From NCBI GenBank assembly GCA_018241225.1, contig JAFEEG010000042.1:82497-146496 (forward strand): a DNA stretch of 64,000 bases, given 5' to 3'. Made by a program: the position numbers and the translations under genes. The stretch comes from Pseudomonadota bacterium (GTDB lineage Bacteria; Pseudomonadota; Gammaproteobacteria; Burkholderiales; Burkholderiaceae_C). Below the pieces are notes generated by a model. That model worked only from the letters and a program-made list of their open reading frames with translations. It was not told the origin of the DNA and did no database searches. Of this stretch, positions 4,107-29,510 are shown piece after piece (the first letter of the stretch is position 1; the number at the start of each line of letters is the position of its first letter).

Positions 4107-5252
4107 TCAGTCGGCTGCCGGCGCGGCGTATTCAAGTTCGGGGGGGATGGGCAGGTCGGCGGGTTCGCGCGGCGCATCGCCGCCTTCGCTCTGCCAGCGC
4201 TTGAGCCGGTAGACCCAGGCCAGCACCTCGGCCACGGCGGTGTACAGGCCTGCCGGAATCTCCTGGCCCAGCTTGGTGTTCTTGTAGAGCGCACGCGTGA
4301 GCGGCGGCGCCTCGAGCACCGCCACCTTGTGTTCCTTGGCGATCTCGCGGATGCGCAGCGCCACCAGGTCCACGCCCTTGGCCACCACGCGCGGGGCGCG
4401 CATGTCGCCGTCGACGTACTTCAGCGCCACGGCGAAGTGCGTCGGGTTGGTCACCACGATGTCGGCCTTGGGCACCTCGGCCATCATCCGGCGGCGCGAC
4501 ATCTGCTGCTGCTGGCTGCGGATGCGCGCCTTGATGTGCGGATCGCCTTCGCTTTCCTTGTGTTCCTGGCGCAGGTCTTCCTTGGACATGCGCAGCTTGC
4601 GGTAATGGCTCCACAACTGGTAGGGCACGTCGATGAGCGCGATGAGCAGCAGCGAGGCGACGATGAGCACGCTGTCTTGCGCGACCAGCTTGGCCATCTG
4701 CGGCAAGGCGGCGCTTGCTGGCTGGGCCATGAGCGCCATCACGCGGTCCATGTTGCCCATGATCACGACCCAGGCCACGCCACCGATGAGCAGCGACTTG
4801 GCCAGCGCCTTGGTCAGCTCGGCCAGCGACTGGGTGGAGAACATGCGACCGATGCCGGCCAGCGGGTCGAGCTTGCCGAAGTTGGGCGCCAGCGACTTGG
4901 TCGAAAGCAGCCAGCCGCCCAGCATCATCGGGCCGACCAGGGCGGCCACCGTCATGACGCTGAGGATGGGCAGCACCGCCAGCAACCCGTCCAGCAGCAT
5001 GGCACCCACGTGGGCCAGCATGAACGAGGTGTCAAAGCCCGAAGCGCGCTCGAAGCGCAAGCCCTGGTGCAGCGCCTTTTGCATGCTGGTGCCCAGCGAA
5101 TCGGCGCTGGACCAGATGCCTGCTACCGCCGCCCCGAGCAGCACGAGCGTGCTGAGTTCGCGCGAGCGCGCAACCTGGCCTTCCTCACGCGCCTTTTCCA
5201 GGCGCCTTTGGGAGGCTGGTTCCGTTTTCTCGAGATCGCTTTCCTCAGACAT
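4107..5252 (-). CDS. flhB: Flagellar export switch protein FlhB
   Basis: FlhB is the export-gate subunit whose autocleavage lets the apparatus switch from rod/hook to filament substrates, in partnership with FliK. The 381-residue protein has a charged N-terminus (EKTEPASQRRLEKAREEGQV), four hydrophobic segments between about residues 32 and 210, and a cytoplasmic domain. That domain carries the NPTH cleavage site at residues 269-272 (Asn269/Pro270). The ATG at 5252 follows a GGAG-type ribosome site. A 468-bp gap upstream, containing a hairpin and a long inverted repeat, suggests flhB may start its own transcript instead of only being read from the che genes. A free homologue of its C-terminal domain is encoded at 15768-16067. 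Confidence 0.98.
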   Translation of the reverse strand: MSEESDLEKTEPASQRRLEKAREEGQVARSRELSTLVLLGAAVAGIWSSADSLGTSMQKALHQGLRFERASGFDTSFMLAHVGAMLLDGLLAVLPILSVMTVAALVGPMMLGGWLLSTKSLAPNFGKLDPLAGIGRMFSTQSLAELTKALAKSLLIGGVAWVVIMGNMDRVMALMAQPASAALPQMAKLVAQDSVLIVASLLLIALIDVPYQLWSHYRKLRMSKEDLRQEHKESEGDPHIKARIRSQQQQMSRRRMMAEVPKADIVVTNPTHFAVALKYVDGDMRAPRVVAKGVDLVALRIREIAKEHKVAVLEAPPLTRALYKNTKLGQEIPAGLYTAVAEVLAWVYRLKRWQSEGGDAPREPADLPIPPELEYAAPAAD

Positions 5253-12763: not shown

Positions 12764-13636
12764 TTAGGAAGAAGGCTGCCCGGGCGGCTGCTTGCCCGGC
12801 AGGGTCATGGTGGCTTCGCCGGTGTTCTCGCGCTCGAAGCGCTCCTGCGTCTGGTGGTTGAGCACGATGATGCTGATGCGCCGGTTGACCGGATTGCGCG
12901 GGTTCTCGCGGTCCAGGTGGGCGCTGTCGGCCAGGCCCACCACGCGCAGCACCTTGGCGCTGGCCATGCCGCCGCCCACCAGCTCGCGGCGCGAGGCATT
13001 GGCACGGTCGGCAGACAGCTCCCAGTTGCTGTAGGAACCGTCGTTGGTGTAGACGATGGCGTCGGTGTGACCCGACACGGTGATCTTGTTGGGCAGCTCG
13101 TTGAGCATGGGGCCCAGCTCGCGCAGGATGGTGCGCATGTAGGGCAGCACGCGGGCGCTGGCCAGGTCGAACATGGGACGCTTGTCGCTGTCCACGATCT
13201 GCAGGCGCAGGCCCTCGGTGGTGATGTCGATCAGGATCTGCGAGCGCAGCTGCTTGATGCTGGGGCTGTTGTCGATCATCGCCTCCAGCTTGGTCTTCAT
13301 CGCGTCCAGGCGCGTGGCGTCGGCGTCGTCCTCGTCGGCGGCGCGCTTCACGTCGCCGTCGGAATGGGCCATGTCGGTGCCGCCACCGGGCACCACGCTG
13401 GCGCTCATGGCCACCTTGTCGCCGCCTTGCAGCGCCACCTTCAGCGGCATGCGGAAGTGCTCGGCAATGCCTTCACGCTGCTTGGGGCTGGAGATGGACA
13501 GCAGCCACATCACCAGGAAGAAGGCCATCATGGCCGTCATGAAGTCGGCGTAGGCGATCTTCCAGCCGCCGCCATGGTGGCCGCCGCCGTGGTCGCCGCC
13601 CTTGCGCTTGACGACAACTTTCTTTTCTTCGCTCAT
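12764..13636 (-). CDS. motB: Flagellar stator protein MotB
   Basis: MotB anchors the proton-driven stator to peptidoglycan. The 290-residue protein has a His/Gly-rich N-terminus, one membrane helix (about 28-48, IAYADFMTAMMAFFLVMWLL) with the proton-accepting Asp at residue 31, and a periplasmic OmpA-like domain (about 145-265: VSGHTDAIVY, NWELSADRANASRREL). It lies 23 bp after motA, and the pair is read from the flhDC side. The His/Gly stretch at residues 15-24 is unusual but short. Confidence 0.97.
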   Translation of the reverse strand: MSEEKKVVVKRKGGDHGGGHHGGGWKIAYADFMTAMMAFFLVMWLLSISSPKQREGIAEHFRMPLKVALQGGDKVAMSASVVPGGGTDMAHSDGDVKRAADEDDADATRLDAMKTKLEAMIDNSPSIKQLRSQILIDITTEGLRLQIVDSDKRPMFDLASARVLPYMRTILRELGPMLNELPNKITVSGHTDAIVYTNDGSYSNWELSADRANASRRELVGGGMASAKVLRVVGLADSAHLDRENPRNPVNRRISIIVLNHQTQERFERENTGEATMTLPGKQPPGQPSS

Positions 13637-13659
13637 GGTCAGGCCAGGCCTTCAGCAGA

Positions 13660-14523
13660 TTACTTGGCGGCCTTGACTTCGCGAACGTGCGCGTCGAGCT
13701 CGGTGAAAGACGGGCGTTCGGTCGAGAACAGCACCTTGCGGCCGAACTCCACCGCCAGCTGCGGTGCGTAGCCGTTCAGGCTGGCCAGCAGCGTGACCTT
13801 GGCGCACTGGTAGACCTTCATGCCCTCGGCCACGCGTTGCTCGATCAGCGAGGCCAGCGGCGTGACAAAGCCATAGGCCAGCAGCACGCCCAGGAAGGTG
13901 CCCACCATGGCGTGCGCAATGAGCGCACCCATTTCAGAGGGCGGCAGGTCGGCCGAGCCCAGCGCGTGCACCACGCCCAGCACCGCCGCCACGATGCCCA
14001 GCGCCGGCAGCGCATCGGCCACGCGGGCAATGCTGTGCGAAGGCACCAGCGCCTCGTGGGCGATGGTCTCGATGTCGTGGTCCATCAGGGCCTCGATCTC
14101 GAAGGCATCGGTGTTGCCGCTGATGACCAGGCGCAGGTAGTCGCACAGGAACTCCATCACGCCCTTGTCGGCCAGGATGCTGGGGTAGCGGTTGAAGATC
14201 TCGCTCTGCTCGGGCGCGTCCACGTCCGACTCGAGCTTCATCATTCCTTCCTTGCGCGCCTTGGCCAGCAGCTCGTACAGCAGGGCCAGCAGGTCCATGT
14301 AGAGCTGGCGGTCGCGCTTGGTGCTGCGCAACAGGCGCGGCAGCTCCTTCATCGTGGCCTTGATGGTCTTGCCCTTGTTGCCCGCGATGAAGGCACCCAG
14401 TGCCGCGCCGCCGATCATCAGCAACTCAACCGGCTGGAAGAGCACGCCAAAGTGCCCGCCCATCAGGCCGTAGCCACCGAACACGGTGGCCAGCACCACC
14501 AAATACCCCACCAGAACGAGCAC
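13660..14523 (-). CDS. motA: Flagellar stator protein MotA
   Basis: MotA forms the proton channel with MotB and pushes on FliG. The 287-residue protein has four membrane segments, with the first starting at the N-terminus (LVLVGYLVVLATVFGGYGLM). A large cytoplasmic loop carries the charged torque region around residues 85-125, and conserved prolines appear in SADLPPSEMG and GFVTPLAS. The start is a GTG at 14523, chosen because the family begins exactly here. It is 45 bp from the flhC stop, so it is probably co-transcribed with flhDC. Confidence 0.96.
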   Translation of the reverse strand: MLVLVGYLVVLATVFGGYGLMGGHFGVLFQPVELLMIGGAALGAFIAGNKGKTIKATMKELPRLLRSTKRDRQLYMDLLALLYELLAKARKEGMMKLESDVDAPEQSEIFNRYPSILADKGVMEFLCDYLRLVISGNTDAFEIEALMDHDIETIAHEALVPSHSIARVADALPALGIVAAVLGVVHALGSADLPPSEMGALIAHAMVGTFLGVLLAYGFVTPLASLIEQRVAEGMKVYQCAKVTLLASLNGYAPQLAVEFGRKVLFSTERPSFTELDAHVREVKAAK

Positions 14524-14568
14524 GTAGTTCCCCTCGGGCCCGCAGGCCTAGTTCAAGAAATCAAAGAA

Positions 14569-15186
14569 TCAAGTGACAGCCACGCGAGCCATGCTGATGC
14601 CGGCCAGGCCGGCGGTCAGGCCGGGTCGGCCCAGTGCACTGCGCGGCGCACGCCGCTCGTGTGCAGGCTTGGCGGCGCGCACCTTGCCGGCGCGCGATGG
14701 CGGGCGGCACAGCACGCACACGTAGTCGTGCTTGTCGTCGTAGGCGTGCGCCACGAACTCGCCGGCGCAGCGCGTGCAGCTGCTCAGTTGCAGCATGCCG
14801 CTGTCGAAGAAGCGGACCATGGTGTAGGCCCGCGTGAAGTCCAGCACCGTGCTGCCTTCGGGCAGGTCGGCCTGCTCCAGGTAGATGCGGTAGCTCTTGA
14901 TGAGCGCCTGCAGGTCGCTGCCGTCGTCGTGGCTGCGCATGAAGCGGTAGATGTTGTAGAACATCGACGAGTGGATATTGGCCAGCCAGGTCATGTACCA
15001 GTCGGTCGAAAAAGGCAGCAGCCCCTTGGGCGGCGACGCACCCTTGATTTCCTTGTAGAGGCGAATCAGCCGCTCGCGGCTCAGGCCGACTTCCGCTTCC
15101 AGGAATTGCAGGCGGGCACCCAGGCCGATGAGTTCCACGGCCAATTGAACCTGCTTGACTTCTGCCAATACGCTTTTCTGGCTCAT
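14569..15186 (-). CDS. flhC: Flagellar master activator subunit FlhC
   Basis: With FlhD it forms the heterohexameric activator of class II flagellar genes. The product has 205 residues, close to other FlhC proteins. Residues 1-130 match the helical family core (LAVELIGLGARLQFLEAEVGL, PFSTDWYMTWL). The zinc-binding cysteines appear in SSCTRCAGEF and VCVLCRPP. The last 45 residues are basic and Ala/Gly-rich. It begins 10 bp after flhD and returns to the GC-rich codon use of the neighbourhood, unlike flhD. Confidence 0.95.
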   Translation of the reverse strand: MSQKSVLAEVKQVQLAVELIGLGARLQFLEAEVGLSRERLIRLYKEIKGASPPKGLLPFSTDWYMTWLANIHSSMFYNIYRFMRSHDDGSDLQALIKSYRIYLEQADLPEGSTVLDFTRAYTMVRFFDSGMLQLSSCTRCAGEFVAHAYDDKHDYVCVLCRPPSRAGKVRAAKPAHERRAPRSALGRPGLTAGLAGISMARVAVT

Positions 15187-15196
15187 TTCCCGAACC

Positions 15197-15538
15197 TCAG
15201 TTCTTGGCAGCCAGATGATTTCCGGCCATCAAAATTGACATATGGGCACGCTGCAATGCCGAATCTTTTTCGTCATTGCCGACCGCGTGAGCCGATTCCT
15301 CGTCATTCAGTCGCGGACTGAAGATGAGGAATTTGGAATTGGACAACTTGATGATCTGGGTAATTGTCATATTGGCGAGCATGTCGGCCAATTTGCTGCC
15401 AATTCCAAGGCGAATCATCGAAGCTGCCTTGTCTTGTTTAACCATCTTCTGGGCCAACAGGATATAGGCGAGATTGATATCACTGATTTCTCGCGCAATT
15501 TCCTCATTCAAGGCAACCGAATCACTGTACGAATTCAC
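15197..15538 (-). CDS. flhD: Flagellar master activator subunit FlhD
   Basis: FlhD dimerises and partners FlhC to switch on the flagellar hierarchy. The product has 113 residues from a GTG at 15538, preceded by GGAG six bases upstream. A TTG four codons earlier is the alternative. The hallmark region is EEIAREISDINLAYILLAQKMVKQDKA, followed by the TITQIIKLSNS region. Codon use is strikingly AT-richer than every neighbour, and the AT-rich stretch continues through the promoter to about 15780. This is the regulatory apex of the flagellar cluster. Confidence 0.93.
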   Translation of the reverse strand: MNSYSDSVALNEEIAREISDINLAYILLAQKMVKQDKAASMIRLGIGSKLADMLANMTITQIIKLSNSKFLIFSPRLNDEESAHAVGNDEKDSALQRAHMSILMAGNHLAAKN

Positions 15539-15767
15539 TTCCCGCTCCAATTACTAATCGAACTTTTTAGCACGAAATAAATGTATCACAGTGTTTCAAT
15601 TTTCTGTACGTCACTTCGGTGACGAATATCACGATTCACGACGCAGCGCCCGAATGTGCGGAAAAATTCCACTTGCGTTTCGTCTATGAAAAGTAATATG
15701 AACACGTTCGGGTTAACTATTAAAAATGTTTCTTTTGCCCATTTACGAGCGGTGTAATTAATATGGG
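15539..15767 (-). promoter_or_regulatory. AT-rich control region of flhDC
   Basis: This 229-bp stretch between flhD and the upstream gene is much AT-richer than its surroundings and presumably holds the flhDC promoter. It contains a perfect inverted repeat CGTCAC-TTCG-GTGACG at 15609-15624, about 70 bp before the flhD start, which could be an operator. Several AT-rich -10-like strings are present, but I could not single out one promoter with confidence. Confidence 0.5.
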
Positions 15768-16067
15768 TTACTTTTCAATTTCAACCACATCCGCCGGCGA
15801 ATTTCCTTCGTCGATTTCCCAAAGCCAGGCCAGCACCTGTGCCACGGCCTCGTAGAGCGGCGGCGGAATCTGCCTGTCCAGCTGCACCTGCATCAGCAGG
15901 CGGATGAGCTGCGGCGAGGCATGCACGTACAAGCCGTGCGCTCGCGCCGTGCACATGATCGATTCCGCGGTTGCGCCGTAGCCCTTGGCCACCACCACCG
16001 GCGCACCGCCCTCGTCCCGGTAGGACAAGGCAACGGCGCTGGACCGCGCGCTGGCTGCTTCGCTCAT
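15768..16067 (-). CDS. Free FlhB C-terminal domain homologue (FhlB/YlqH type)
   Basis: A 99-residue soluble protein that aligns with the part of FlhB after the cleavage site. SAVALSYRDEGGAPVVVAKG here matches FAVALKYVDGDMRAPRVVAKG in FlhB (4107-5252), and the ends match as PPPLYEAVAQVLAWLW versus PAGLYTAVAEVLAWVY. The NPTH cleavage motif is absent, with SARS at that place. It therefore mimics the already cleaved FlhB C-terminal fragment. The ATG at 16067 overlaps the stop of the FliK-like gene (ATGA), so the two are coupled. Similar free domains are known beside FliK-like genes in other bacteria, such as Bacillus ylqG-ylqH. Its role in export switching is inferred. Confidence 0.85.
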   Translation of the reverse strand: MSEAASARSSAVALSYRDEGGAPVVVAKGYGATAESIMCTARAHGLYVHASPQLIRLLMQVQLDRQIPPPLYEAVAQVLAWLWEIDEGNSPADVVEIEK

Positions 16068-17359
16068 GCCGGCTGCACCTGCGAATCGAACTGCATGCCT
16101 TGCAGGTCGAGGCCCGCACCGGACATGCGCCGCGTCAACATCGCTTCGCGCGTGCGCAGTTGCTCCAGCGCATCGGATCGCGTGGCAAGCACTTGCGCAT
16201 GTACGCTCATGCCGGCAAGCCGCAGGTTCACCTTCAACGAACCAAGTTGTGGCAGGTCGAGCGACAGCGTTGTTGCCCACTGCGATGGCAGTTCGTCTTC
16301 GCGCTCGTGGGCATGCTGCCTCGCGCGCTCGTCCTGCACGGTCCATTCCATCGGCACGCCGGGCCAGGCCTGGCCGCTCCAGCGAAACATCGAACTGGCC
16401 AGCAAGTCCAGCTGCTGGTGAACCAGCGTTGCAGCCTGCGGATGAATCACCGCAGCGGCTGCCGGAGCTGCGTCGGCGGCAACATCGGCCGCCGCTTGCC
16501 TTGGCGAATCTGCCAGCACGCACGACCGAGGCTGCGCATCGGCCGCAGCCTGCGCGAATCGCGACAGCGCATGTTCAACCGATGCAAGCGGCATGCGCTG
16601 TGCGCGCGCCGGATCGGATTCGGCCGCCTGGCCAGGTTCGACCAGTTCGGGGCCGGCCGCCTGCGCCCCACCCTCTTGTCGCACCTGCTCTTGCAACGGC
16701 AACGCAGGCATCAGTGCAGCCAGGGCCGGTGCGTCCGCGGGCATGGCAAGGGCCGCCGCCTGCGCCGCCGCCGTGGGCAACATACCGGACGGCAGGCGCT
16801 GCTGCTGCTGCTGTTGCGCAAGTGCTGCCGGCTCCGTCTGCTGGTGCGACGCGTGGAGATTTGCTGCAAGGCCCGCTTGTGGCTCGCGCTGCATTTGCGC
16901 AAGGCTGCGCGCTCCAACGGCGAGCTGCGCCAGGTGCGACTCGTAGAAAAGCCCCGACTCCGATACTTGCTGAGACAAGGCCAGCGCAAGTGCACCAGCT
17001 GCGGGCGCCCGCCCGGCCGCCGGCCACAGGGCGACGCTGCCGCGCACCGGGCCGGCCTGCGCTGCATGCAGGTCGGGCACCAGCTCAAGAAGGGCGCGCG
17101 CTGCGCTGGACAGCGACGCCGCGCCGCCCGCGCCGGCCTGCGGCCCCGCGCCCGGCAATGCAGCCTGCGACTGCGTGGCTCCTGCCTGCGGTTGCAGGCC
17201 TGGGCGGGAGGGCAGCAATACTTCATTGTCGACACGGGGTGCGCTCGAAACCGGCAGCGCCTCTTGCCCGCTTGCGGGTGCCTTGGGCGCGGTCAGCGCC
17301 AACCATGGCGCCAGCCGCGCCGCCAGCAGCGCATCGGCCTTGGCAAGCGGCCCGGTCAC
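16064..17359 (-). CDS. Second FliK-like hook-length control protein
   Basis: A 431-residue Ala/Gln-rich protein with a C-terminal domain (about 330-425) like the FliK substrate-switch domain, containing TTLSLDLPQLGSLKVNLRLA. The middle is low in complexity, with a run of six glutamines. The canonical FliK is encoded separately at 28173-29510, so this is a divergent paralogue. The start is taken as the GTG at 17359, 14 bp after the fliT stop; a start at 17428 would overlap fliT heavily. Its stop overlaps the start of the FlhB-tail gene. A role in export or length control is inferred from the domain and location. Confidence 0.8.
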   Translation of the reverse strand: MTGPLAKADALLAARLAPWLALTAPKAPASGQEALPVSSAPRVDNEVLLPSRPGLQPQAGATQSQAALPGAGPQAGAGGAASLSSAARALLELVPDLHAAQAGPVRGSVALWPAAGRAPAAGALALALSQQVSESGLFYESHLAQLAVGARSLAQMQREPQAGLAANLHASHQQTEPAALAQQQQQQRLPSGMLPTAAAQAAALAMPADAPALAALMPALPLQEQVRQEGGAQAAGPELVEPGQAAESDPARAQRMPLASVEHALSRFAQAAADAQPRSCVLADSPRQAAADVAADAAPAAAAVIHPQAATLVHQQLDLLASSMFRWSGQAWPGVPMEWTVQDERARQHAHEREDELPSQWATTLSLDLPQLGSLKVNLRLAGMSVHAQVLATRSDALEQLRTREAMLTRRMSGAGLDLQGMQFDSQVQPA

Positions 17360-17372
17360 GACAGCAGCAGGC

Positions 17373-17705
17373 TCAATGCGAGCCTCCGTAGGCCTTGCCC
17401 AGGCTGGCTTGCGCCTGCAGGCTGGCAATGCCGGTGAGTAGCTGGCGCAGTTGCGGCTTGACCAGGCGAATCACCTCTTCCTGGTCGCGGCGCACGTTGA
17501 TGAGCGAATGCCGCACCACTTCGCGCTGCTCGCTGCTCAGCTCGGTGTCGTTCTCGATTTCCTTGAGGCGCTGCACCAGTGCCGAGCACAGGGTTTCGAG
17601 CGCGGGCAATTCGCCCCACTCTTCCTGGCGCGACAGCTCCAGCATGCGCGCGGTAATGATGGCGAGCCGCTCGTAGCAGTACACGACTTCGCTGTTGACG
17701 GACAT
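17373..17705 (-). CDS. fliT: Flagellar export chaperone FliT
   Basis: A 110-residue all-helical protein in the fliD-fliS-fliT position, whose family members act as chaperone for the cap protein FliD. In enteric bacteria FliT also inhibits FlhDC. The sequence shows helical stretches (VVYCYERLAIITARMLELSR; LVQRLKEIENDT; VRRDQEEVIRLVKPQLRQLL) and no membrane segment. FliT sequences diverge strongly, so the call rests on size, helicity and position 17 bp after fliS. Confidence 0.85.
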   Translation of the reverse strand: MSVNSEVVYCYERLAIITARMLELSRQEEWGELPALETLCSALVQRLKEIENDTELSSEQREVVRHSLINVRRDQEEVIRLVKPQLRQLLTGIASLQAQASLGKAYGGSH

Positions 17706-17722: not shown

Positions 17723-18154
17723 CTACAGATTGATGTTCGGCGCGCGTTCGTCGCCGATCTCTCGCCAGGCCGACGCGATGTTCTCGAGCAGGCCGTCGGC
17801 CTCGTCCAGCGCAGCAACGTCGTTGCGCAGGTTGGCCTGCAGCAGGCGCTGCACGATGTAGACATACAGCGCGCCCAGGTTGGCCACCAGGCTGGCGCCC
17901 TGCGCACCCGCCGCCTGTGCATCCAGGCTGGCACGCAAGCCGTTGTCCACGATGTTGATGGCCTTGGCGATGGCATTGCCCTTGGCCTGCACCTCGCCGC
18001 TGGCCATGTGGTGGCGCGCCATGCCGATGGCGGTCTTGGCGCCATCGAAAAGCATCACGATCAACTGGTGCGGCGAGGCGCTTGCGGCCTGCGACTCGAT
18101 GCCGACACGCGCATAGGCGCCGGCGCCGGTTCGATAGGTGTGGTGCGTGTACAT
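17723..18154 (-). CDS. fliS: Flagellin export chaperone FliS
   Basis: FliS binds the C-terminus of newly made flagellin and prevents premature assembly. The product has 143 residues. Its N-terminal part is diagnostic: YRTGAGAYARVGIESQAASA, then SPHQLIVMLFDGAKTAIGMARHHM, the family helix. AIAKAINIVDNGLRASLD is also typical. It lies 40 bp after fliD and 17 bp before fliT, all on the minus strand. Confidence 0.97.
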   Translation of the reverse strand: MYTHHTYRTGAGAYARVGIESQAASASPHQLIVMLFDGAKTAIGMARHHMASGEVQAKGNAIAKAINIVDNGLRASLDAQAAGAQGASLVANLGALYVYIVQRLLQANLRNDVAALDEADGLLENIASAWREIGDERAPNINL

Positions 18155-18194: not shown

Positions 18195-19649
18195 CTACTT
18201 GCTGCTGGAGGTGCCGTTCATCGCCTCGAACTGCTGCTTCAGGTAGCTCAAGGTGCTGTTCATGCTGCTCATCGTCACGTCCAGCTGCGTGAACTGCGCG
18301 CGGTAGCGGGCCACCGTGGCGTCCACGCGGGTCTGCATGGCGTCGTACTGCTCGTCCAGCTTCTTGATGGTCTTGGTCACACCGTCGGATGCCGCCTGCA
18401 GGCTGCCGCCGGTCTTGGTGAGCGAATCGACCAGCGAGTCCAGCTGCTTGCCGTAGCCCGAGGTGCTGTCGCCGTTGCCGGCGAACAGCCTGCTCACGCC
18501 GGCCAGGTTGCTCTCCATCGCCTTGTCCAGCTTGGTGCTGTCCACCAGCAGCGTGCCGTCCTTCTGGAAGGCCACGCCGATTTCGTTGAGCACCTTCACG
18601 TCGTTGGTGCCGCCCGCCTGCGGCGAAGCCAGCACCTGGCGCACCCGGTTCATCAGGTTGCGCGTGGTCGAGTCGCCCATCAGCGCGGCACCGGTCTTGG
18701 TGTCGGCGTCGTAGGCGGTCAGGCTCTTGGCGGTGCTTTGCAGCGCGTTGTAGGCCTTGACGAAATCGTTGATGGCCGTCTTCATCGAGGCCGTGTTGGC
18801 CTTCATCGACAAGCCCGTGGTGCCGGTCTGCACCAGCGTGAGCGTGGTGCCCTGGATGGCTTCCTTGACGGTGTTGGTGCCGCTGGTGATGGCAATGCCG
18901 TTCACGTTGAGCTTGGCGTTCTGCGCCGCCAGCGTCTGCTGCAGGTTCTGCGTGCCGGCCGGGTCGTTGCCCAGCATGTTCTGCAAGGCCGCATCGCCGT
19001 CGACCGAGATGCGCATGCTCGAGGCTTCGCCCGTTTCCTTGGAAACAAGCACCAGGCGAAAGGGCGTGCCGCTGCCGTCGTTGACGATGCTGGCGGTCAC
19101 GCCCGCATCGGCGGCGTTGATCGCATCGCGAATACCCGTGAGCGTGTTGTTGCTCGAGTCGATGGTGATCGACTTGGCCGCCCGCGACGCATCCGCCGAA
19201 AAGCTGGCGCCGCCGTAGGTGCCGGTGACCGGGTCCAGCGTGCCACCGCTGATGGTGCCGAAGTCGATCGTGACCTTGCCACTACCGATGGCCGTCGTCG
19301 ACGAGGCCTGGCCCTTGGCAATCATCGATTGCGACTGCGCCAGTTGCGACACGGTGATGTTGTAGTTGCCGGCCGAGCTCGGGTCGGTGGACGAAGCAGC
19401 CAGGATGCCGCTGACTGTGGGCGTGCCGGTCACGGCCTGGAACAGCGCCGGGTCGCCCAGCTTCTTGGCCGCGGACTGCAGCGATTCGAGCGCGCTTTGC
19501 ACCTGGCCGTAGGCCGACAGCTTGCTCGTGTAGCTCTTGGCCTTGGCCTCCAGCGCCACCAGCGGCTGGCTTTCGGCCGTCTGCAACTGCGTGAGCAGGC
19601 TGCTCAGGTCGAGGTTGGCGCCAACGCCCAGGCTGCTGATGGTCGACAT
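18195..19649 (-). CDS. fliD: Flagellar filament cap protein FliD
   Basis: FliD forms the pentameric cap that guides flagellin insertion at the filament tip. The product has 484 residues, usual for the family. The N-terminal D0 region is SLGVGANLDLSSLLTQLQ. The variable middle is rich in Thr/Ser/Ala, and the C-terminal coiled region includes SSMNSTLSYLKQQFEAMN. It is the head of fliD-fliS-fliT-(FliK-like)-(FlhB tail), 43 bp downstream of flaG. Confidence 0.97.
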   Translation of the reverse strand: MSTISSLGVGANLDLSSLLTQLQTAESQPLVALEAKAKSYTSKLSAYGQVQSALESLQSAAKKLGDPALFQAVTGTPTVSGILAASSTDPSSAGNYNITVSQLAQSQSMIAKGQASSTTAIGSGKVTIDFGTISGGTLDPVTGTYGGASFSADASRAAKSITIDSSNNTLTGIRDAINAADAGVTASIVNDGSGTPFRLVLVSKETGEASSMRISVDGDAALQNMLGNDPAGTQNLQQTLAAQNAKLNVNGIAITSGTNTVKEAIQGTTLTLVQTGTTGLSMKANTASMKTAINDFVKAYNALQSTAKSLTAYDADTKTGAALMGDSTTRNLMNRVRQVLASPQAGGTNDVKVLNEIGVAFQKDGTLLVDSTKLDKAMESNLAGVSRLFAGNGDSTSGYGKQLDSLVDSLTKTGGSLQAASDGVTKTIKKLDEQYDAMQTRVDATVARYRAQFTQLDVTMSSMNSTLSYLKQQFEAMNGTSSSK

Positions 19650-20208: not shown

Positions 20209-21855
20209 TTAACGCAGGAGGGACAGCACGCCTTGCGTGGTCTGGTTGGCCTGGGCCAGCACCGAGGTACCGGCTTGCTGCAGGATCTGGGCGCGCGACA
20301 TGTTCGACACTTCGGTCGCGTAGTCGGCGTCTTCGATGCGCGAGCGCGAGGACGACAGGTTGTTGATCGTGGTGCCCAGGTTGGCGATCACCGAGTCGAA
20401 GCGGTTTTGCACCGCACCGAGGGAGCCGCGCAGGCTGTCGACCTTGGCCAGGGCCGCGTCGATGGCCTTGAGGGGGTCTTCGGTCTTGGCGCCCTTGCTG
20501 GTGGTGTCGGTCGTGAGCTTGCCGGCAGACACGTAGGCAGTGGCGCCCACTGCCGGGGCGTACTTGCCAGTTCCGGTGCCGCTAGCCACAGTCACCAAAC
20601 CGGTGTCAGCGTTGACCTGGTAGTTGGTGTCGTAGGTAGCAACGGTCGTGAAGTCACCCTTGTCATCAACAAACGTGTCGGTCGAAACGCCGGACGCGTT
20701 GAAGGTCATCGATGCGCTCAGCAGGCCGCTGTTCATCGTGATGCTACCGGCGGCCGTCTTGAAGTTGGCCTTCAGCGCGTCAGCGGCGATCGTGTCGGTG
20801 AAGGTCAGCTTGGTGCCGTCGCCGGAGTACTTCGTGCCACCGATCGTGACCGAGCTGCCAGCAGCGGTCGTGGCCTTATCCATCACATCCTTCAGCGTCG
20901 CCTGTGTTGCCGAGCCCGACGGATCGTTGGTGGACAGTTGGCCGGCGGCCGACATGTAAGCAGCCTGGCCGCCGATCGTCAGGTTGCCGCTCGCGTCAAC
21001 CTCGAACGAAGCCGCAGCGCCTCCCTTGTTGTCGTAGCTACCCGAGACAGTGCCCGAGGTCGGCTTGTACTTTGCGGCTTCCGTTGTCGTGCTGGCCACG
21101 GTCTGCGTGAAGCTGAAGCTCTTCGAGGCCGCGTCGTACGTGTAGGTCTTGGCGGCCGAGGTGACGGTATCGCCGCTCTTGAGCGCTGCGAACGCCTGGT
21201 CGGCGGTCACAGCGGCGTTGTTCGTGGTGACCTTGTAGACGCCCGAACCTGCAGCGGTTTCCGTGCCGCCTGCAGCAACCAGATTCGTAACAGTGGCGGT
21301 CTTGTTCTGCGACACGCCAGCGCCGTTCACGTTGAAGCCATCCAGACCCAGGGTCTTGGCGCTGATTTCCTTCAGGTCGATGTCGATGGTCTGGCCATCG
21401 TTCGCACCGACTTGCACCGTCAGCTTGCCAGCGTCAGCCGACAGAACCTTCACGCCGTTGAACTGCGTCTGCTCCGACACGCGGTTGATTTCGTCCAGGC
21501 GCTGGCCGATTTCAGCCTGGATCGAATCCAGGTCGCTTTGCGAGTTCGTGCCGTTGGCCGACTGCACCGACAGTTCGCGGATGCGCTGCAGGTTGTTGTT
21601 GACTTCGGTCAGCGCGCCTTCGGTCGTCTGGGCGATCGAGATGCCGTCGTTGGCGTTGCGGGAAGCTTGCGTCAGGCCCTTGATGTTGGCGGTGAAGCGG
21701 TTGGCGATGGCCTGGCCGGCGGCGTCATCCTTGGCGCTGTTGATGCGCATGCCGGACGACAGACGCTCGATAGCCGTGTTCAAGGCCGACTGCGACTTGT
21801 TCAGGTTGTTCTGCGTGAGCAGAGAGAGACTGTTGGTGTTGATGACTTGCGCCAT
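20209..21855 (-). CDS. fliC: Flagellin FliC
   Basis: The filament subunit, 548 residues. The conserved N-terminal D0/D1 part ([61 protein letters not shown]) covers about residues 1-170. The conserved C-terminal part ([57 protein letters not shown]) covers about 470-548. The middle is a Thr/Ser/Ala-rich variable region exposed on the filament surface. It is preceded by AGGAG and a near-perfect sigma-28 promoter. It is the only flagellin gene in the window. Confidence 0.98.
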
Positions 21856-21953: not shown

Positions 21954-21980
21954 TTATCGGCAAGGGCCTTCAAAGCTTTA
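21954..21980 (-). promoter_or_regulatory. Sigma-28 promoter of fliC
   Basis: On the minus strand: TAAAGCTT, 11 bases, GCCGATAA. This matches the flagellar sigma-28 consensus (TAAAGTTT-N11-GCCGATAA) at all but one position with exact spacing. It lies about 100 bp upstream of the fliC ATG, giving a long 5' leader. Confidence 0.92.
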
Positions 21981-28172: not shown

Positions 28173-29510
28173 ATGAGCTCTCTGGTCCTCTCGATTCCCA
28201 CCGCGCCTGCCCCGGCCCATGCGGCCTCGGGCGCCTCGTCGTCGGCGCCACGCGCGCGCGACGCGCAGTCCCCCACCGATACCGAAGCCTTCGGTGCCGC
28301 CCTGGCCCGCACGCGCGAGAACCGTTCTCGCCAGGCTCAGGACAAGGCAGAACCTGCAGCCGATGCACCGCCGGCACGCCGGCGCGGACTGACCGGCTCT
28401 TCGCAGCGCGAGGAGACGTCGCCCGCGGACCTGCTGGCCATGGCCATGCTCACCCCCGTCTTCCAGACCCAGGCCACCGCACTGCAGCAGCAGAACGCCT
28501 CGGCATCGCCAGGCAGCGATGCGGCGGTTCGCACCGCGCTGGAAGGCATGGCCACGGCCAACGAACTTCCTGCCGCAACCGATGCCGCACAAGGCGACGC
28601 ACAGCCGCACGCCCAGCCAGGTGCCGCTGCCGACAAGACCGCCGCCACGCAGGCCGCGCAAGCGAGCGCGGCAGAACTGCAGGACAAGGACGAGAAGAGC
28701 GCCAAGGTCAAGTCAGACGCACAACAGGCCTTGCCCGATGCCAAGGCAGCCGCGCAAGCCCTGCCGGCCTCGACCGCCACCGCCGCCCAGGTGCCAACGC
28801 AAGCGGCAGGCGCGGCTGCATCCAGCACGGCCAGTGCTTCGCCCACTGCGGCGGCCGCCTCGTCGAAGCCCAGCACCGACGCCGCCGCCCTGCCCCTGCA
28901 GGCCGCGCGCGATGCCGCACCGGAGCACGACAACATCGACACGGCATCCGACACGCCCGCGCAACTGCCAGGCGCCTTCAGCTTCAAGGCGGCGCTGGCC
29001 GAAGCGGCCAATGCGCAGGCGCCCGCGCCGGCGCAGCCAGTGCCCCGCTTCAGCGTGCCCACGCCCGTGGGCAGCGATGGCTGGGGCGCCGACGTGGGCA
29101 CGCAGATGATCCGCATGGGCACCGACGGCCACCACGTTGCCGAGCTGAGCCTCAACCCGGCCGGCCTCGGCCCGCTGAAGGTGACGCTGACCCTGGGCGA
29201 CAACCTGGCCCAGGCCCAGTTCGTCTCGGCCCACGAAAGCGTTCGCCGCGCGCTCGAAGCCGCGCTGCCGCAACTGCGCGACACGCTGGCCAGCCAGGGC
29301 ATCCAGCTCGGCCAGGCCTCGGTCGACGCGGGTGCGCGGCAGCAGCAACAGCAGGCCTTTGCCGACCAGGACCAGCGCAACTTCGAGGCGTCCGCGCGCG
29401 CCGCACAGCGCGACCTGCGGCAGGCCGCAGGCGGCCAAGCCGTCGACGCACAACCGATGCGCGCAGCCACCCGTGGCCGCGCCGCAAGCGGCATCGACAC
29501 CTTCGCCTGA
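28173..29510 (+). CDS. fliK: Hook-length control protein FliK
   Basis: FliK measures the hook and triggers the FlhB export switch. The product has 445 residues. Residues 1-300 are a disordered Ala/Gln/Thr-rich ruler region. The C-terminal domain (about 310-430) has the characteristic AELSLNPAGLGPLKVTLTLG and QLRDTLASQGIQLGQASVD. A Gln-rich tail follows. It lies in the canonical place between fliJ and fliL. Compare the second FliK-like gene at 16064-17359, which is only distantly similar. Confidence 0.95.
   Translation: MSSLVLSIPTAPAPAHAASGASSSAPRARDAQSPTDTEAFGAALARTRENRSRQAQDKAEPAADAPPARRRGLTGSSQREETSPADLLAMAMLTPVFQTQATALQQQNASASPGSDAAVRTALEGMATANELPAATDAAQGDAQPHAQPGAAADKTAATQAAQASAAELQDKDEKSAKVKSDAQQALPDAKAAAQALPASTATAAQVPTQAAGAAASSTASASPTAAAASSKPSTDAAALPLQAARDAAPEHDNIDTASDTPAQLPGAFSFKAALAEAANAQAPAPAQPVPRFSVPTPVGSDGWGADVGTQMIRMGTDGHHVAELSLNPAGLGPLKVTLTLGDNLAQAQFVSAHESVRRALEAALPQLRDTLASQGIQLGQASVDAGARQQQQQAFADQDQRNFEASARAAQRDLRQAAGGQAVDAQPMRAATRGRAASGIDTFA

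Follow-up and report, generated by a model that had tools for sequence, protein, structure and literature searches.

A FliK-like gene overlapping a gene for a free FlhB tail: a possible accessory module for flagellar export switching in Burkholderiales

The window, as the whole analysed stretch of 64,000 nucleotides is called here, carries on its minus strand (15768-17359) a gene pair formed by a FliK-like gene, K2, and a gene for a free FlhB tail, T. The pair is read, tentatively and ahead of the alternatives weighed below, as a conserved module accessory to the flagellar export switch and not as a second switch, a module in which T would reset or stabilise the switched machine. K2 and T probably tune the switch rather than duplicate it. 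The one-time switch from hook to filament export is a long-standing question that has largely been worked out in Salmonella. The features of the locus and the two canonical genes used for comparison are as follows.

15768..16067, minus strand: T (FlhX-like), free FlhB CC domain, 99 residues, ATG start (PF01312)
16064..17359, minus strand: K2, FliK-like, 431 residues, GTG start, T3S4 domain at residues 356-430 (PF02120)
16064..16067, minus strand: ATGA stop/start overlap of K2 and T (read in the sequence)
17373..17705, minus strand: fliT, 13 nt upstream of K2 (PF05400)
17723..18154, minus strand: fliS (PF02561)
18195..19649, minus strand: fliD (PF07195/PF02465)
20209..21855, minus strand: flagellin gene, upstream of fliD (PF00669/PF00700)
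15197..15550, minus strand: flhD, about 217 nt downstream of T, exact start uncertain (PF05247)
4107..5252, minus strand: canonical flhB, NPTH present, for comparison (Pfam and sequence)
28173..29510, plus strand: canonical fliK, ending in GIDTFA, for comparison (Pfam and sequence)

The first-pass annotation had described a FliK-like gene followed by a 99-residue FlhB-tail protein, and profile searches found both. K2 matches Pfam Flg_hook (PF02120, E 6.7e-13) over residues 356-430 of 431, so the 431-residue protein does carry a FliK-type C-terminal domain, and T matches Bac_export_2 (PF01312, E 3.1e-18) over model positions 262-335 of 335 only. The ATGA overlap of the K2 stop with the T start was read at bases 16067-16064, and the canonical fliK and the canonical flhB with its NPTH motif are both real, as that annotation had stated. 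The minus-strand order is flagellin, fliD, fliS, fliT, K2, T, flhD, flhC, motA and motB, and K2-T stands after fliD-fliS-fliT in many Burkholderiales loci. A search of the whole genome with PF01312 returned two matches, flhB and T. With no other FlhB-family protein in the genome, the pair has no injectisome that it could serve here, and an injectisome partner was thus ruled out for this genome. This lack of an injectisome and the position behind fliD-fliS-fliT argue for an accessory role in the flagellum.

T has no transmembrane part, no NPTH/NPxH motif and no proline-rich end. Judged by alignment, it is the counterpart of the already-cleaved FlhB-CC half, starting at about H272 of Salmonella FlhB. 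The earlier claim that NPTH is replaced in T is right about the absence of the motif and wrong about a replacement, since the motif falls outside the protein. Among the fetched relatives, T frames were told from FlhB by the missing NPx[HY] near the start; the motif occurred in six frames, all full-length (362-389 residues), and in none of the short proteins. When 163 unique T sequences were aligned to Salmonella FlhB as reference, the proline-rich end, defined by our own pattern P[IV]P..L, was found in 0/163. A proline-rich C-terminal region is described as typical of beta/gamma FlhB (PMC7771051). The early-substrate pocket of FlhB, reported as A286, P287, A341 and L344 (PMC9307174), is conserved in T: P287 and A341 are present in 163/163 sequences, position 286 is A in 149/163 (9 S, 4 T, 1 P) and position 344 is L in 145/163 (10 M, 8 I). 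The retention of this pocket is one reason to read the pair as an accessory module. The structure model of T has low confidence (pLDDT 60.9, pTM 0.40); FlhB/YscU CC chains occupy the top of its fold-match list throughout, a match that is supportive only, the model being of low confidence. The best NCBIfam model for T is TIGR00789 (flhB_rel, E 3.7e-21), at 75.1 bits and thus below the curated cut-off of 117.35, for which reason T is named FlhX-like and is not placed in that family. The same model has matches in 4 of 14 control genomes, 2 of them above the cut-off.

K2 shares with canonical FliK the PF02120 T3S4 domain in its C-terminal part, which was found in 28/28 aligned K2 proteins, and differs from it in having motifs of its own and, in Burkholderiales, no VDTFA-type end and mostly no tail after the domain. 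Two stretches are conserved in K2 specifically (28 rows): G[LM]FYE.H with EPQ after it, and a motif resembling W.G..WPGQ..W. The T3S4 region was modelled with pLDDT of about 90-96; the best PDB match of the model is the PscP switch domain 5cuk (E 4.3e-3, prob 1.00), and the FliK structure 2rrl comes fourth and is weak (E 0.15). K2 is in this respect like the injectisome T3S4 proteins PscP and HpaC-HpaP, and 4/28 K2 proteins match HpaP. The PscP/HpaC systems, however, work with an injectisome FlhB homologue, of which the window's genome has none.

The largest difference from FliK lies at the C-terminus. FliK has 36-58 residues after the T3S4 domain (21/21 proteins), whereas Burkholderiales K2 proteins stop close to the edge of the domain or right at it, with a median of -2 residues among 31 proteins; 29 of these 31 lengths are usable, with a range of -7 to 23, and the values for G047 and G082 are wrong, their stops lying inside the profile match. 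Over all 146 K2 of the fetched loci the median is 2 residues past the domain, with a few at 25-45 (e.g. L121). A terminal pentapeptide with F/Y/L and an A/V end is present in 23/23 FliK proteins, including GVDIFA of E. coli and GIDTFA of the window, and in 0/32 Burkholderiales K2. An extension of 13-24 residues is nevertheless found in 22 of the 27 K2 listed for L051-L072 and L156-L175, some ending in LVDTRA or FETLA, which somewhat resemble VDTFA of FliK. These extended K2 led us to drop the notion that K2 is switch-dead everywhere, which is also countered by the PscP-type T3S4 proteins; these end near their domain yet switch. Judged by eye over alignment columns 60-140, many K2 have an N-terminal stretch GQ...LPNG.F.V...LP...PGD, which is absent from the K2 of the window and of Variovorax.

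The two genes occur together far beyond the window. In 120 genomes of the window's order, Burkholderiales, T was called at a threshold of at least 114 bits (FlhB itself scores at most 88) and K2 at a threshold of at least 62 bits. An FlhB-family match was found in 88/120 genomes and T in 77 of these 88. K2 was found in 74/77 T-bearing genomes and in 0/11 FlhB-family-bearing genomes without T (Fisher p 1e-11, uncorrected for relatedness). Of the three T-bearing genomes in which K2 was not called, G017 has a weak K2 match (27.8 bits) directly upstream of T. In a second sample of 60 genomes of the window's own family, 44 have FlhB-family matches and 7 have T, with K2 in 6/7 T-bearing genomes and in 0/37 FlhB-bearing genomes without T. 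The co-occurrence of K2 and T, given these counts, is not chance, and the fact that they come and go together (74/77 vs 0/11; 6/7 vs 0/37) supports an accessory module. The pair is patchy within the window's family. Another FlhB-family protein accompanies T in 75 of the 77 T-bearing genomes of the order sample, the exceptions being G084 and G108. In G084, a 97% complete genome with T on contig C6, no full-length FlhB was found, and K2 is represented only by two open frames (219 and 132 residues), as if decaying. The standard model of the switch may miss two components in the 74/88 FlhB-family-bearing genomes that have both the T3S4 protein and the free FlhB-CC.

The adjacency of the genes is conserved in related genomes, a point on which the first-pass annotation had let its reading depend. 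K2 lies directly upstream of T in 145 of 163 distinct fetched T loci, the window included, and at these loci the K2 profile always outscores the FliK profile. The 163 loci are what remains of 165 after two exact repeats were removed (L026=L123, L058=L172; 146/165 before removal), and 10 further loci repeating other loci were left out of the set. A subset of the same fetched loci served to build the K2 and T profiles, and the alignments A1, A2 and A3 include the proteins of the window itself, whose match is therefore built in. Among the loci scored as lacking K2 are L077, which is cut by a contig end, L004, which has a K2 match in another search, and L174, in which a FliK-like upstream frame was seen by eye only. 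Among the 52 tail matches listed, a FliK match stands just upstream in 45. In seven T loci from one family of another class (L055, L058-L063), no K2 was found next to T; here T lies directly behind a CorA-like frame, and Pfam CorA was confirmed in L172 (= L058). These seven loci count against an accessory module. The survey covered one phylum plus Geomonas, a genus of Thermodesulfobacteriota in which the pair is present in 5/5 loci. The proposed linkage across phyla gains support from these loci and from the published flhX-fliK pair of Nitratiruptor (PMC9321776).

In the window (12764-17359), in Variovorax, in Salinisphaera and in some genomes of other orders, K2-T is followed by flhDC and, where the locus extends, by motAB (L051-L054, L073-L082, L112). 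T of the window and of Variovorax groups with Salinisphaera (96/77) and not with other Burkholderiales, hinting at a transfer of the block or at an old arrangement.

The first-pass annotation had called K2 and T a linked duplicate of fliK and flhB, a description that the trees do not support. K2 and FliK separate at 100/100 (32 + 23 rows), and T and FlhB-CC are split by one branch at 91/96 (35 + 26 rows, 88 columns), a value below the star threshold of the tool. A recent duplication is ruled out because both pairs of families fall apart in this way. Eight Variovorax loci, with synonymous sites near saturation, gave dN/dS values of 0.22 (T) and 0.46 (K2); the comparison genes had 0.30 (fliS), 0.42 (fliT), 0.14 (motA) and 0.16 (flhC). 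Judged from these ratios, both T and K2 are under purifying selection, which again favours an accessory module.

Distance co-variation (mirror-tree) was computed in 20 genomes as partial r, with the N-part of FlhB as control. The distances of T gave a partial r of 0.45 with FlhB-CC, 0.32 with FliK and 0.16 with K2 (p 0.056); FlhB-CC/FliK gave 0.32, FlhB-CC/K2 0.21 and FliK/K2 0.22. Every tested pair is positive, so that shared history was probably not fully removed. The contact of FlhB-CC with FliK comes from Salmonella work. By co-variation, contact of T with K2 is no better favoured than its contact with the canonical parts. The high value for FlhB-CC supports an accessory role at the switch, while the ranking of T-K2 (0.16) below T-FlhB-CC (0.45) and T-FliK (0.32) counts against it, in that a K2-T complex is not favoured; the mirror-tree support for such a complex is weak.

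An exact sigma28 consensus, TAAA-N15-GCCGATAA, lies at 21954-21980 on the minus strand, some 100 nt ahead of the flagellin gene; by chance the window should hold 0.42 matches with at most two mismatches. The consensus was not found just upstream of fliD, the exact match standing before flagellin only, and this also weighs against the proposed role. A sigma70 scan gave no match. In Pseudomonas putida, pp4328-4329 is reported as a predicted operon that is partly FliA-dependent, with a 1.8-fold and indirect effect of FleQ and an influence of RpoN as well (PMC5026340). With such regulation, the pair would belong to the flagellar switch and be expressed together with late genes.

Published work on Salmonella suggests how such a pair might act. 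FlhB-CC and Fluke are reported to keep the export machine in its early mode, FliK is reported to eject FlhB-CC at hook completion, and FliK is proposed to act on FlhB-CC through its five C-terminal residues (PMC13344023, 2026). The reported ejection opens the concrete question of whether T is the replacement. T would be a soluble, ready-made FlhB-CC working in trans at the very site that the CC half of FlhB itself occupies, and K2 would be a dedicated T3S4 protein, co-made with T, that holds or delivers it. When FliK ejects FlhB-CC at hook completion, the FlhB-CN seat would be left empty; T, made with the late genes, could then fill the vacated seat and so reset or stabilise the switched machine. 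Four elements of this scheme are inferred: that T binds FlhB-CN, that K2 binds T, that expression in this genome is late, and that the machine is reset. The partial FliA dependence of the P. putida operon (PMC5026340), the report that HP1575 of Helicobacter pylori serves as a "spare part" when FlhB-CC is deleted and the FliK-driven loss of FlhB-CC (PMC13344023) are consistent with this accessory role. Against it, FlhB-CC holds Salmonella in the early state, so that refilling the seat would oppose the switch unless T differs. T is also missing from 37/44 FlhB bearers in the sample of the window's family and from 7/7 Fluke-bearing genomes. Fluke (E. coli flk) was found in 7/299 Pseudomonadota genomes, all of one family; a functional swap between Fluke and T is suggestive at most, the overlap of 0/7 coming from a single lineage.

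The kept pocket and the late-type regulation reported for P. putida (PMC5026340) would also fit a decoy or antagonist, in which T competes with the FlhB CC half for canonical FliK or early substrates under regulation by K2, and which would delay switching or shut off early export after the late genes are on. Such an antagonist would account for a pocket present in nearly all 163 T sequences that yet lack the parts for a working FlhB, and for the co-variation of T, which is stronger with FliK (0.32, as for FlhB-CC with FliK) and FlhB-CC (0.45) than it is with K2 (0.16). The pocket residues may, however, be kept for the fold alone, and what is reported for HP1575 is functional substitution and not inhibition. 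We consider this reading somewhat unlikely, ranking it close behind the action of T in trans at the FlhB seat.

A backup or separate switching module, as the first-pass annotation had suggested, would have K2 and T perform the early-to-late switch alone or in place of FliK and FlhB-CC. The predicted T3S4 fold of K2, its best match to PscP, an injectisome switch protein, the HpaP matches (4/28) and the extended K2 (22/27), some with LVDTRA/FETLA ends, are what such a module would lead one to expect. The FliK-type pentapeptide is nevertheless missing from Burkholderiales K2 (0/32 vs 23/23 FliK), the cleavage site and proline-rich end are missing from T (163/163), and the two families separate from FliK and FlhB-CC in the trees. 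Since K2 lacks the pentapeptide and T lacks NPTH and the proline-rich end, a backup switch is improbable, and the absence of the pair from 37/44 FlhB-bearing genomes of the family sample also speaks against that suggestion. Still less probable, and very unlikely overall, is that the pair is a relic or that T and K2 serve some process other than the flagellum. Two loci from other orders of the class (L161, L163) do have the pair beside ccm genes, with ccmB near, instead of flagellar genes (10 neighbour proteins tested, 3 of them without any Pfam match), and T is missing from most FlhB-bearing genomes of the window's family. A leftover is opposed by the purifying selection on both genes, by the second FlhB-family protein in all T-bearing genomes of the order sample except G084 and G108, and by the influence of FleQ, RpoN and FliA on the P. 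putida operon (PMC5026340).

A stronger form of the accessory module is unlikely: a late-made FlhB-CC replacement cassette in many flagellated bacteria, with K2 delivering T after ejection and the machine gaining a second, reversible life. Renewed early export or repair, for example, would then be possible, and the irreversible switch of Salmonella would be an exception of lineages without the pair.

Free FlhB-CC proteins and linkage of the K2-T type are already known, the latter having been mentioned briefly in at least two publications. The P. putida operon pp4328-4329 combines a FliK homolog with an FlhB domain protein, the same gene types as here; it is given as apart from the flagellar cluster, with no function reported in the available part of that source (PMC5026340), and it is likened to K2-T by description, not by sequence. 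The window pair has the same arrangement, with K2 directly upstream of T on the same strand and the ATGA overlap. The flhX-fliK pair of Nitratiruptor, which belongs to a different phylum, lies outside the main flagellar cluster and is likewise compared by its published description and not by sequence (PMC9321776). H. pylori HP1575 and Campylobacter FlhX (Cj0848c), of the TIGR00789 family, are stand-alone FlhB CC homologues like T, which differs from that family in scoring under the curated cut-off; flhX is also described in Actinobacteria and Campylobacter. In the literature searched, neither a function for the K2-T pair nor a prior report of the K2/T co-occurrence and of the missing switch ends was recognisable from titles and abstracts. 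Both FliK types share one cluster in locus L014, where canonical fliK follows K2-T in the same orientation after about 840 nt.
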